Of a stretch of DNA of 64,000 nt, positions 203 to 5,898 are shown piece by piece. This DNA comes from Sphingobacterium paludis (GTDB lineage Bacteria > Bacteroidota > Bacteroidia > Sphingobacteriales > Sphingobacteriaceae). Made by a program: the position numbers and the translations under genes. Every line of letters begins with the position of its first letter. The first letter of the stretch is position 1. Location of the stretch: the NCBI RefSeq assembly GCF_004364125.1, contig NZ_SNZV01000003.1, positions 1 through 64,000 on the forward strand, read 5' to 3'. The notes under the pieces were generated by a model. It did no database searches. It was not told the DNA's origin and worked only from the letters and a program-made list of their open reading frames with translations.

Positions 203-3200
203 TTATCGCCAACCTCCGCCGAGTGCTTTATAAATCACGATTTCGTTGAGCAGTTCTTCTTTCTGAATTTCAACCTGATCAATTTCTGCAACGATGGCAT
301 CCTTCTGCGCTGTAATGATGTCTAAGTAAGACACCCTGCCCGCTATAAACAATTCATTGGCGGCATCGACCGCCCCGCGCAGCGCCACAACTTGATCTCG
401 AATATGCTGCTCTCTATTGAGGATAAACTCCTGTGTATTTACTGCATTGGAAACCTCATTATAGGCTTGCAAAACCCGCTTTTCATATTCCAGAAAGCTG
501 AGTCCGTACGTAGCCTTATACGTTTCATATTGGCTTCTTAATTGCCGTTGATTAAAAAGAGGCGCCGTAAGCCCGCCAAGCAAACCATAGGTTAGCGATT
601 TATCGAAGTCCACAAGCTTACTGAAGCTAAAGGTTTGTAAGCCCATATAAGGAGATAAAACCAACGTAGGCAAAAAGGACGCCTTCGAAGCTTTAACATC
701 TTGTTCCGCACCCAAAAGTAGAAACGAGGCCTCCCTAATATCGGGACGAGCAGCCAACATCTGGAAAGGGGTACCCACCTGCAGCTTTTCGAACAGCCGC
801 TTATTGGCAAACCCGTCTGCGGAACGTTCAACCGGCTGGTTGTAGCGGCCTACCAAATAATTAATATGATTTTCTAAAATTGCAATCTCTTGCTTGACCT
901 TTTCACGTTCCGCTTTTGCACCAGCTACGATTGCCGTAAATTGGCGAACACCCAACTCCGATTTACGCCCAGCTTCTTTCTGTAAAATGGAGATTTCCAA
1001 GGCGCGCTCGTTAAGTTCAATATTACTATCAAACACCTTGATTTTTGCATCCAGACTTAGCAAATCATAGTAAGCAGAGGCTACGTTAGTCACCAGCTCC
1101 GTCTCGATCAACCTTCTCGCTTCATTCTCTGCCAATAAGGAGTTAAACGCAGAATTTTTCTGGCTCTTAAGCTTACCCCAAAGATCCAGCTCCCAGGAGG
1201 CGCGCACACCGATGAAATAATCAGGAACCGCCGGTTCAGGAATTTTCTCATCATCCCGAAGGTTTTCAGAAAAGTTGGAATCGTAGTTACCAATCCCGGC
1301 TTCGGTATAAAACCCATACTTCCGCAAACCCGCTTCCGCGGCCAAATCTAAGCTCGGTAAGAGGGCCGCCTTGCGCTGTTTGAAACTTGCTTGCGCAATC
1401 TCGATACGCTTAATGGCCTGCTGCAAATCATAATTATACAGCAAAGCGGAGTCAATAAGCATTTTCAAATGCACATCCGTAAAGACTGCTTCCCAAGGTT
1501 GGTGAGCGATAGTGCTACTATCCATGTCCGCAGTCAAGCTGTCAAGGGAAAAAGCTGTAGGCAGCGATTGCACCTGTTCCTTCTCCAGCTGTTTAGGAAC
1601 ATTGCAGGACACGACGAAGCCAAGAAACAGCAATAGGGTGGCCACCGCCGGAATAGTCTTCTTTTTCTTTTTTTCGCGTGATACCAGAACGAATAAACCG
1701 GGGATAATAATGACGCCTAGTAGCGTACCGATTACCATACCTCCGACAGAAGCTGTACCGATGGTTCGGTTACCAATGGCACCGGCACCGGAAGCCACCA
1801 TAAGTGGAATCAAACCGGCAACAAAGGCAAAGGAAGTCATCAAGATTGGTCGCAACCTCGCATAAGCCCCCTCGATAGAGGCCTGGATGATACCCATGCC
1901 CTGCTTCTGTTTTAACACCGCATATTCTACAATCAGGATTGCATTTTTACCCAATAAACCAATCAGCATGACTAGGGCCACCTGCGCATAGATGTTATTT
2001 TCCAACCCAAAAATCTTCAAAAACAAGAAAGATCCAAACACACCCGCCGGCAAACATAAAATGACAGGAAGAGGTAACAAGAAACTTTCGTATTGAGCGG
2101 AAAGCAATAAATACACGAAAACGAGACACAATGCGAATATATAGATTGCTTGGTCGCCGGAGATCACCTGCTCACGCGTCATCCCAGACCATTCTATGGA
2201 ATACCCCTGCGGCAGGTTTTCTGCTACGCGCAAAACGGTCTCGATGGCTTGGCCGGTGCTAAAGCCGGGCGCTGGTTGTCCGGTGATCATGGCCGATGTA
2301 AACATATTGTATCGGGTAATCTGTTCTGGTCCGTAGATTCGTTTCATCGTGATGAATGAGGAATAGGGCACCATCTCGCCATCCGACGTTTTAAGATATA
2401 ACTTCAAAACATCCTCCGGTGTCTGGCGGTAATTGGGGTCTGCCTGCACCATGACCTTGTACATCTGACCGAACCTAATGAAATTCGTAGCATAAAAACT
2501 GCCCATTAAGGTCTGCAGCGTGTTCATAGCATTCTCCACCGATATGCCTTTTTTCGCCGCTAAATCGTAATCGATATTTAACATATACTGTGGGAAGGAC
2601 ACGTCGAATCCAGAGGAAGCACTTTCTATCGCATCTGTTTCCGTTAAATCGGCCAAAAACTGGTCTAACACCTCAGCCGTTTTACCCAGATCTTCATTGC
2701 CACTTCGATCCAATAGCCGCAACTCAAATCCGGAAGCATTACCAAATCCCGGTACGGTGGGTGGCGGAAAGAATTCAATTTCGGCATCGGCAATATGCGC
2801 GGTCTTCAGCCGAAGTTCATTGATCATATCGTCAACGGTCTCCGCACGCTGATCCCATGCTTTTAAATTGATCATCCCCATGCCGTATGATGCACCGGAA
2901 ACTTCCGTCAGTATGCTGTAACCCGCTAGCGTGGATACGGTCTCAACCGCCTCGAGATTTCGGGCGATAGCGTCCACTTCGTCCAATGCTTTCTCTGTCC
3001 GATCGACAGTAGCCCCGGGCGGTGTAGTCACGCTGACATAAATCATACCTTGATCTTCGGTAGGAATAAAGCCGGAAGGCAAAACACTGCTGGCTCCCCA
3101 GGTTACCACGAAAAACGCCACGAGCAAGCCAATCGTTATTATCCTTCTACCAACGATCCTGGCTAAAAGGCTACGGTAGCGTCCGGCCGTCTTATCATAC

Positions 3201-4765
3201 GCAGCATTAAATGCTTTAAAGAATCGCGCCAGTAAACTGTTAGACTCCTTCTTATCGTGTGGAGAGCGTAAAATAATCGCACATAAGGCGGGTGTCAACG
3301 TCAGAGCATTGATTCCTGAGATCACGATGGCGGATGCCAGTGTTAAGGAGAACTGCCGGTAAAATATCCCGACGGGGCCAGATAAAAAGGCCACCGGCAC
3401 AAACACGGCAGACATCACGAGCGTGATGGCAATAACTGCAGCGCCCACTTCTTTAATAGCGGCTAAGGTCGCTTCCATCGGTTGAAGATGTTCTTCCTCC
3501 ATTTTTGCATAAACGGCCTCTACCACCACAATCCCGTTATCGACCACAATACCGATGGCCAAGACAAGCGCAAATAACGTTAATAGGTTGATGGAAAAGC
3601 CCATCATCAACATGAAAAACAGCGCACCAATTAAACAGACAGGCACCGCCAAGATGGGAATAATCGTGGCCCGGAAATCTTGTAGGAATATAAAAACAAC
3701 GAGGAATACCAAGATAAAGGCTTCGATCAGGGTTTTCACCACACTGGAAATGGACGCGTCCAAAAAGCGGGATACGTCATAGCCCATCGTATAGGTCATG
3801 CCCGACGGAAAATTTGTCGTTTTCAATTCCTCCATGCGATCTTTTACCCGCTGGATAACGTCTTGGGCATTCGATCCCGGCAACTGTTTTACCATGATGG
3901 ATGCTGACGGACGACCGTCCGTTTTGGAAACCATTTCATAATCCAGCGAGCCGAATTCTACATCGGCAATATCACGCACGCGGATAATGGAGCCGTCTGC
4001 ATTGGCACGAATAGCGATGTTGGCATATTCTTCTGGTTCGGAAAATTTCCCTGGATAGCGAAGCACATACTGTTGCATGTTGGTGGTCTTATCCGAACTG
4101 ATACCGGTCTGCCCGGGTGCAGCTTCGATGTTTTGCCTGCGCAAGGATTCGATCACTTCATCCGTAGAGATTTGATAGGCTGCCAAACGATCTGGCTTTA
4201 ACCAAACGCGCATGGCATAGTCGCGCATCCCCATAATCTGGGCAAAACCAACACCTTCGATACGTTTTAGCTCCTTTAAGATATTAATATCCGTAAAGTT
4301 GTAAATGAAGCGTTCATCAGCCGTTTCATCCGATGTATAGATATTAAGATACATCAGCATACTATTCACTTCTTTCTCGGTAGTGACACCCGCCCGAATA
4401 ACTTCTTCCGGAAGCTCATCCAGTACGGTAGTAACCCTATTCTGGACGTTAACCGCCGCAATGTCGGGATCCACGCCGACCTGGAATGCAACCTGAATTA
4501 ATGTCGTACCGTTATTGGTTGTCACGGTATTCATGGATGTCATGCCGGCAACACCATTAATTGCTTTTTCAAGCGGAATGGCAACCGCATTTGTACTTAC
4601 ATCTGCATTGGCGCCCGTATAGTTTGCTGTAACAACCACAGAGGGTGGTACAATATCGGGAAACTGCGTGATCGGTAAGCTAAACAATGCCAGTAATCCC
4701 AGCAAAGTAATAAATATGGATATGACCAGCGATAATACTGGCCTTCTTATGTATGTTTCAAACAT
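203..4765 (-). CDS. Fused RND efflux pump and outer-membrane factor (AcrB-OprM type)
   Basis: Residues 1-1030 form a full HAE1/AcrB-type RND permease of normal length. It has the amphipathic start MFETYIRRP, two large periplasmic regions and about twelve membrane segments, and would drive proton-coupled export from the inner membrane. The frame then continues without a stop through a lysine run (1032-1036) and a hydrophobic segment (1037-1053) to a lipobox ending VVSC with Cys1054. After that comes a complete OprM/NodT-type outer-membrane factor (1054-1520). The junction therefore looks like an intact lipoprotein signal peptide (basic n-region, hydrophobic core, Cys) inside a longer protein. 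The two halves are normally separate genes. The adaptor gene lies immediately upstream in the same operon, so the unit encodes a whole tripartite pump. Substrate unknown. The junction DNA is an A7-G-A5 tract, so slippage or a sequencing error could also join the frames. Confidence 0.9.
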   Translation of the reverse strand: MFETYIRRPVLSLVISIFITLLGLLALFSLPITQFPDIVPPSVVVTANYTGANADVSTNAVAIPLEKAINGVAGMTSMNTVTTNNGTTLIQVAFQVGVDPDIAAVNVQNRVTTVLDELPEEVIRAGVTTEKEVNSMLMYLNIYTSDETADERFIYNFTDINILKELKRIEGVGFAQIMGMRDYAMRVWLKPDRLAAYQISTDEVIESLRRQNIEAAPGQTGISSDKTTNMQQYVLRYPGKFSEPEEYANIAIRANADGSIIRVRDIADVEFGSLDYEMVSKTDGRPSASIMVKQLPGSNAQDVIQRVKDRMEELKTTNFPSGMTYTMGYDVSRFLDASISSVVKTLIEAFILVFLVVFIFLQDFRATIIPILAVPVCLIGALFFMLMMGFSINLLTLFALVLAIGIVVDNGIVVVEAVYAKMEEEHLQPMEATLAAIKEVGAAVIAITLVMSAVFVPVAFLSGPVGIFYRQFSLTLASAIVISGINALTLTPALCAIILRSPHDKKESNSLLARFFKAFNAAYDKTAGRYRSLLARIVGRRIITIGLLVAFFVVTWGASSVLPSGFIPTEDQGMIYVSVTTPPGATVDRTEKALDEVDAIARNLEAVETVSTLAGYSILTEVSGASYGMGMINLKAWDQRAETVDDMINELRLKTAHIADAEIEFFPPPTVPGFGNASGFELRLLDRSGNEDLGKTAEVLDQFLADLTETDAIESASSGFDVSFPQYMLNIDYDLAAKKGISVENAMNTLQTLMGSFYATNFIRFGQMYKVMVQADPNYRQTPEDVLKLYLKTSDGEMVPYSSFITMKRIYGPEQITRYNMFTSAMITGQPAPGFSTGQAIETVLRVAENLPQGYSIEWSGMTREQVISGDQAIYIFALCLVFVYLLLSAQYESFLLPLPVILCLPAGVFGSFLFLKIFGLENNIYAQVALVMLIGLLGKNAILIVEYAVLKQKQGMGIIQASIEGAYARLRPILMTSFAFVAGLIPLMVASGAGAIGNRTIGTASVGGMVIGTLLGVIIIPGLFVLVSREKKKKKTIPAVATLLLFLGFVVSCNVPKQLEKEQVQSLPTAFSLDSLTADMDSSTIAHQPWEAVFTDVHLKMLIDSALLYNYDLQQAIKRIEIAQASFKQRKAALLPSLDLAAEAGLRKYGFYTEAGIGNYDSNFSENLRDDEKIPEPAVPDYFIGVRASWELDLWGKLKSQKNSAFNSLLAENEARRLIETELVTNVASAYYDLLSLDAKIKVFDSNIELNERALEISILQKEAGRKSELGVRQFTAIVAGAKAEREKVKQEIAILENHINYLVGRYNQPVERSADGFANKRLFEKLQVGTPFQMLAARPDIREASFLLLGAEQDVKASKASFLPTLVLSPYMGLQTFSFSKLVDFDKSLTYGLLGGLTAPLFNQRQLRSQYETYKATYGLSFLEYEKRVLQAYNEVSNAVNTQEFILNREQHIRDQVVALRGAVDAANELFIAGRVSYLDIITAQKDAIVAEIDQVEIQKEELLNEIVIYKALGGGWR

Positions 4766-4794: not shown

Positions 4795-5898
4795 CTATTT
4801 CTGTGCTATGGGCTTAATTTTCATACCGTCACGAAGGCCTTGTACGCCTTCATACACAATACGGTCATTTGCATCCAGACCGTCCGTAACGATATAATAA
4901 TGTCCCACACGCTGCCCGGCAATAAATGGTTTCATTTTTACGGTTGCATCATCCATCACGACGTAGACATATGCTTTATCCTGAATTTCAAAAACCGACT
5001 TCTGGTGTACGAATTGAGTAAGACCTGTGGATATCGGCACCGCGATTTTACCGGAGGAGCCATGTTTTAACAAACCGGCCTCATTCGGAAATTTGGCGCG
5101 CAATGAAATGGAACCTGTGGTTGGTTCGAACGCGTTATCCACCAAACGGGCTTCACCCGTATGCGGATATTCTTGACCATTGGCCAACTCCAGCTTGACC
5201 TTCCTTTTAAAATTGCTGCTGCTAAACGTTGAGTCGGTAGCCAAGTTGAGATATTCGGCCTCAGAAATATCGAAATAGACATTTAAGTCGCTGACATCCG
5301 ACAGGCTTGTTATAAGCGCACCTTCTTCTAAAAGTGATCCGGCTTTCAACAAGATCCTATTGATCCGTCCGCTAAATGGGGCTCTGATGAGTGTACGGGC
5401 TAAGCGAGTTCCAGTCTGATTGACAACAGCCTTGGCTTGCGCAACTTTGGATTGCGCAGCTTTATATTGCACAGCAATAAGCTCCTGTTCCGTTGTCGAG
5501 ACGATATCTTTTTCAACAAGTTTTTGAGTGCGTTCTTTTTCCAGTTCCACTTTTTTTGCTTCAGCAATTGCGGTGTTTAACGCCGCTTCTGCCTTCGCAT
5601 GATCCGCTCTGTACTCTTCGTCATTTATCCGAAAAAGAACCTGTCCGGCTTTCACCATTCGGCCTTCATCAACATAGATCTCTTCCAAAAAACCACTTAA
5701 CCTCGAGCGCAGCTCAACATTTCGGGTGGCCTGTATGTCGGCTATATAATATTGATAAATAGTCGTATCCATGGTTAACAAACCACCAACGGGGACTTCA
5801 CGTAAGGACGTAGATTTATTTTCGGCACTTTGTCCGTTACAACTGGCAAATAGCCACAGCATCCCCACGACGGGGAAAAACAAAAAGGATTTATTCAT
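4795..5898 (-). CDS. RND efflux periplasmic adaptor (membrane fusion protein)
   Basis: This 367-residue lipoprotein has a signal peptide ending in the lipobox FASC (Cys20). Next come a beta-strand, a biotinyl-lipoyl half-motif and a long alpha-hairpin rich in Ala, Lys and Glu (roughly residues 95-165), and then the second lipoyl half and beta-barrel domains. This is the AcrA/MexA layout and usual length. The protein would bridge the RND permease and the outer-membrane channel in the periplasm. It ends 29 bases before the fused pump gene and is the first gene of the same operon. No drug specificity can be read from the sequence. Confidence 0.92.
   Translation of the reverse strand: MNKSFLFFPVVGMLWLFASCNGQSAENKSTSLREVPVGGLLTMDTTIYQYYIADIQATRNVELRSRLSGFLEEIYVDEGRMVKAGQVLFRINDEEYRADHAKAEAALNTAIAEAKKVELEKERTQKLVEKDIVSTTEQELIAVQYKAAQSKVAQAKAVVNQTGTRLARTLIRAPFSGRINRILLKAGSLLEEGALITSLSDVSDLNVYFDISEAEYLNLATDSTFSSSNFKRKVKLELANGQEYPHTGEARLVDNAFEPTTGSISLRAKFPNEAGLLKHGSSGKIAVPISTGLTQFVHQKSVFEIQDKAYVYVVMDDATVKMKPFIAGQRVGHYYIVTDGLDANDRIVYEGVQGLRDGMKIKPIAQK

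Follow-up and report, generated by a model that had tools for sequence, protein, structure and literature searches.

A conserved gene fusion in Sphingobacterium paludis joins an RND permease to an outer-membrane factor through an internal lipoprotein signal peptide

The efflux pumps MexAB-OprM, AcrAB-TolC and CusCBA combine an adaptor, an RND permease and an OprM/CusC-like lipoprotein channel, and in these systems the permease and the channel are encoded by separate genes with their own starts. A locus in Sphingobacterium paludis has the same three parts, but its permease and channel share a single reading frame. We analysed a window of 64,000 nucleotides (contig NZ_SNZV01000003.1, positions 1 to 64,000). 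The original prediction described a full RND permease (residues 1-1030) that runs through a lipoprotein signal (five lysines, a hydrophobic core and Cys1054) into a full OprM-type protein (residues 1054-1520). Matches to PF00873 and TIGR01845 bear out both the coordinates and the description.

The frame starts at an ATG and continues for 1520 residues without an internal stop (Table 1). Residues 1-1028 cover the whole Pfam ACR_tran profile (PF00873, 984 bits), and the permease part scores 1038.7 bits against TIGR00915, whose cut-off is 940.35. This full-length domain, together with a family score above the cut-off, identifies an HAE1-type RND permease, and the pump is a putative drug-type efflux pump. 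The channel half matches the NodT outer-membrane subunit family (TIGR01845) over residues 1060-1518, to the end of the profile, with 239.6 bits (cut-off 210.05). It also matches OEP in two stretches and resembles OprM and CusC at the sequence level; with the OprM/CusC fold described below, these are the features of a NodT/OprM outer-membrane factor. The adaptor gene lies directly upstream and has a lipobox of its own (FASC), so that two genes, arranged as an operon, encode all three parts of the pump.

Table 1. Features of the fused locus, in window coordinates, and two related fusions elsewhere in the same genome.
Feature	Location	Strand	Basis or remark
Fused RND permease / outer-membrane factor gene, 1520 aa	203..4765	-	Stop codon 203-205; ORF, domain matches, conserved fusion
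HAE1-type RND permease part, residues 1-1030	1676..4765	-	PF00873 and TIGR00915
A7-G-A5 tract, proposed slippery	1662..1674	-	Not conserved
Internal signal peptide, residues 1031-1053	1607..1675	-	n-region EKKKKK, h-region TIPAVATLLLFLGF, lipobox VVS
Lipobox Cys1054, predicted N terminus of mature outer-membrane factor	1604..1606	-	Invariant 61/61; CusC 3pik alignment
NodT/OprM-type outer-membrane factor, residues 1054-1520	206..1606	-	TIGR01845; OprM/CusC by sequence; Foldseek to CusC
Periplasmic adaptor (RND_mfp) of the same pump, upstream of the fused gene	4795..5898	-	TIGR01730 above cut-off
CusA/CzcA-type fusion L014	G000:C8:57088		Internal signal-peptidase-I (A-Q) joint
CusA/CzcA-type fusion L015	G000:C5:83564		Internal signal-peptidase-I (A-Q) joint

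The joint reads R1030-E-K1032..K1036-TIPAVATLLLFLGFVVS-C1054. A charged n-region and a short hydrophobic core lead into a lipobox of the form [LVI]-x-[GAS]-C (FVVSC in the window), which is the anatomy of a lipoprotein signal. This signal is not at the N terminus of the chain; it is internal and follows 1030 residues of RND permease. We called the signal peptide from its anatomy and conservation rather than with a trained predictor.

Alignment of the joint with relatives, as had been proposed, showed that the fused reading frame is real and is conserved in Sphingobacterium and related genera. Among the 80 congeneric genomes, 71 have a fused ortholog, and every match crosses the joint without a stop; in the remaining genomes, the ortholog is absent or only distant paralogs are found. 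Sampling across the family gave 30 genomes with an ortholog, spread over six genera, and the joint is open in every one of them; many Sphingobacterium species and five Pedobacter are among the named relatives with the fusion. A split ortholog occurred in none of the 80 genus genomes and in none of these 30 family genomes. Relatives that all carry two separate genes, the outcome that the original prediction had set against itself, thus did not occur, all orthologs found being fused. All 24 fused loci that were read over their full length (L049-L072) also contain the adaptor ORF. Tabulated open-frame length by itself was not taken as proof of fusion: open frames of 1573-1624 aa in L155, L160, L165, L170 and L171 were candidate fusions that turned out to be separate genes when the frames were read.

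Among 61 distinct fused proteins, aligned with the lipobox as anchor, the Cys never varies (entropy 0). At position -1, 50 proteins have S, 6 have G and 5 have A, and position -4 is nearly always L or F. The Cys is preceded by a hydrophobic core and, ahead of it, a Lys-rich stretch, in both of which single residues are free to vary. The last charge lies 13-20 residues ahead of the Cys, a distance usual in signal peptides; a membrane anchor is generally longer. An intact lipoprotein signal is present at the joint in every relative read, and the one chain is therefore most likely cut into two subunits.

The linker varies widely in length among the fused homologs, with indels of whole codons only. 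In Pedobacter quisquiliarum (L069), an acidic, Gly-rich insert of about 35 residues (DDDNGSGAGGSG...) lies between the permease and the signal peptide, on what is predicted to be the cytoplasmic side, and SSC is kept after it.

Mature CusC is reported to be triacylated at Cys1, its outer-membrane anchor (PMC3017539). Residue 13 of the CusC structure 3pik aligns with residue 14 counted from Cys1054, so that Cys1054 and mature CusC Cys1 are at most one residue apart. We modelled residues 1000-1520 with AlphaFold2 (mean pLDDT 73, with the joint at low confidence). In this model, a helix ends at model residue 53 (residue 1052) and is followed by coil and then by an OprM/CusC fold, with about 38 low-confidence coil residues between the joint helix and the first channel helix. 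The best Foldseek match of the model is CusC (E 1.8e-20, TM 0.84 on the target), and 3pik and 1wp1 are among the matches.

The same genome contains two RND genes of the CusA/CzcA type, 1466 and 1444 aa long, each with an outer-membrane factor at its end that is preceded by an internal signal peptide with A-Q (LQAQ). Database entries for CusA-type proteins in Bacteroidota include lengths of about 1450 aa. In our phylum-wide sample (E <= 1e-40), fusions of the CusA/CzcA type occur in 40 of 198 genomes; this class is widespread in the phylum. Like the gene in the window, these fusions place an RND permease in frame with an outer-membrane factor and have a signal peptide at the joint. They differ in that they belong to the heavy-metal RND class, have a non-lipid channel and end the joint with [AS]-Q, a signal-peptidase-I site, which stands at the expected position in all 31 joints read. 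According to Bochtler and colleagues, most Bacteroidetes signal-peptidase-I substrates expose Gln after cleavage (PMC5837995), and the CusA/CzcA joints (31/31) fit this Q-rule. A joint Q kept in proteins that are about 30% identical would be hard to explain without cleavage. Given the lipobox at HAE1 joints and [AS]-Q at CusA joints, the type of signal appears to follow the type of channel, lipoprotein or non-lipid. That two predicted signal-peptidase classes occur, each matched to its channel, is strong support for a polyprotein whose internal export signal works.

On this comparative evidence, we consider it very probable that the gene encodes a polyprotein of two pump subunits, which signal peptidase II would cut at Cys1054. 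This cut had been proposed at the outset, and the comparison strongly supports it (invariant Cys, CusC Cys1 register, Q-rule class); the cut itself, lipidation, export through the internal signal and a benefit from equal supply are steps that we infer. AcrB-type RND proteins have 12 membrane helices and a cytoplasmic C terminus. The RND part would insert normally, with its 12 helices and its C terminus in the cytoplasm, and because of this C terminus the joint would have the topology of an export signal. The Lys-rich stretch and hydrophobic core would then serve both as internal signal peptide and as 13th helix (N-in/C-out) that sends the outer-membrane factor through Sec. Lgt would add diacylglycerol to Cys1054 and LspA (signal peptidase II) would subsequently cut before it; both enzymes are encoded in the genome. 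Cleavage would release the channel as a lipidated outer-membrane protein. It would be supplied 1:1 with the permease, in keeping with the trimer-to-trimer build of the pump, while the spent signal may be degraded or left as a permease tail.

How such a fusion could arise is suggested by the unfused relatives. In a quick tree of 82 permeases, in which long branches are present, the fused proteins require two origins. The first is a single clade of 25 Sphingobacteriaceae sequences (SH-aLRT 100). The second is L082, from a single Muribaculaceae metagenome-assembled genome, whose nearest relative in the tree has separate genes; this HAE1 fusion also has a lipobox, TSC. In the closest unfused relatives (Hymenobacter, Mucilaginibacter and Pontibacter), the permease gene ends in a stop and the channel gene starts at an ATG close by, with a lipoprotein signal peptide; these separate channel genes have the same lipobox after the ATG. 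A paralogous pump in the same Sphingobacterium genomes as the fusion (L212-L215) has its permease and channel in the same frame with a single stop codon between them (KSSDE*RMNTMTLKRLVYITAVLVSLSAC), one change short of fusion, and it too has an ATG followed by that lipobox. This pump is a natural control: the stop is kept there and is never found in the fused family. Loss of one stop codon could be enough to create such a fusion. In L024, L025, L028, L029 and L031, an in-frame ATG is found just ahead of the hydrophobic core of the joint. It is probably a relic of the former channel start; the window has ACT.

Other readings of the joint fare less well. The fusion could stay uncut, with the internal helix as a permanent 13th anchor and the permease covalently tethered to the channel, trimer to trimer, but we think this improbable. 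A 1:1 fusion would be compatible with the pump because the RND permease and the outer-membrane factor are both trimers, and the coil that follows the helix in the model is in principle long enough to reach upward; yet in CusC the extension from the N-terminal Cys at the outer membrane to the equatorial domain spans only about 25 A (PMC3017539). Geometry alone allows a tethered pump, but the conserved cleavage signals would then have no explanation: a tether needs neither the invariant Cys nor S/G/A at -1 nor the Q of the CusA class, all of which are kept.

It is less likely still that translation starts anew within the joint and so yields the channel as a product of its own. Some homologs have an in-frame ATG before the hydrophobic core, as in KKKKMIPK of L025, and since an in-frame ATG, GTG or TTG able to start a short signal peptide is present in 22 of the 61 homologs, internal initiation may add product there. 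However, neither the window nor the other 39 have such a codon that would leave a charged signal peptide, and on these counts we reject initiation as a general route. Moreover, it would not require an open frame from permease to channel, yet the whole frame is kept open.

The original prediction also offered slippage on the A7-G-A5 tract as a second route, which would release a separate permease besides the fusion. Gain of one A does lead to a stop 27 codons later, in line with the roughly 30 codons predicted, but after loss of one A the stop comes only at 46 codons. We regard this route as highly unlikely and reject it for want of a conserved tract: homologs have anywhere from 3 to 8 A in the longest run at the joint, and in close relatives the tract is interrupted by other codons. 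Any change of frame soon runs into a stop, and the Lys codons are accounted for by the n-region of the signal peptide and the positive-inside rule. Finally, an error in sequencing or assembly, by which a stop was lost or the frame shifted between two genes, can be dismissed, for although the homopolymer-rich joint is a typical error site, the same open joint is found in independent genomes of many species, with linker indels that are all whole codons, and these fused relatives refute it.

A polyprotein cut at an internal signal peptide has a precedent in FbcH (cytochrome b/c1 of Bradyrhizobium), for which this organization is experimentally established. In both cases, one open frame encodes two subunits, with a polytopic inner-membrane protein, an in-frame internal signal peptide and an exported subunit. 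The FbcH chain is cut by signal peptidase into two subunits of one complex, as we predict for the RND fusion. FbcH differs in that it belongs to a respiratory complex, uses signal peptidase I and has both of its parts at the inner membrane, whereas the RND fusion has a lipoprotein signal and a channel whose final place would be the outer membrane. The domains of the fused gene are RND and OEP only, with no cytochrome b/c1 homology; the fusion would work like an FbcH-type polyprotein without being a member. To our knowledge, bacterial polyproteins are rare. We found no literature on RND-outer-membrane-factor fusions or their processing among open-access papers, the only ones covered, so its absence is not proven.

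It is tempting to go further and speculate, though we hold this to be rather doubtful, that Bacteroidota repeatedly made polyproteins of their tripartite efflux pumps, each with the class of signal peptidase that suits its channel, and that a late or regulated cut lets the joined precursor serve as an assembly intermediate enforcing equal supply and correct pairing of permease and channel.

If the predicted cut occurs, this gene would encode a polyprotein that delivers its two halves to two different membranes, and signal peptidase would be expected to cut within a multi-pass precursor of great length. When such a gene is annotated simply as 'RND permease', its outer-membrane channel goes unnoticed, and the fused family would offer a natural system for co-translational assembly and stoichiometry of multidrug pumps.
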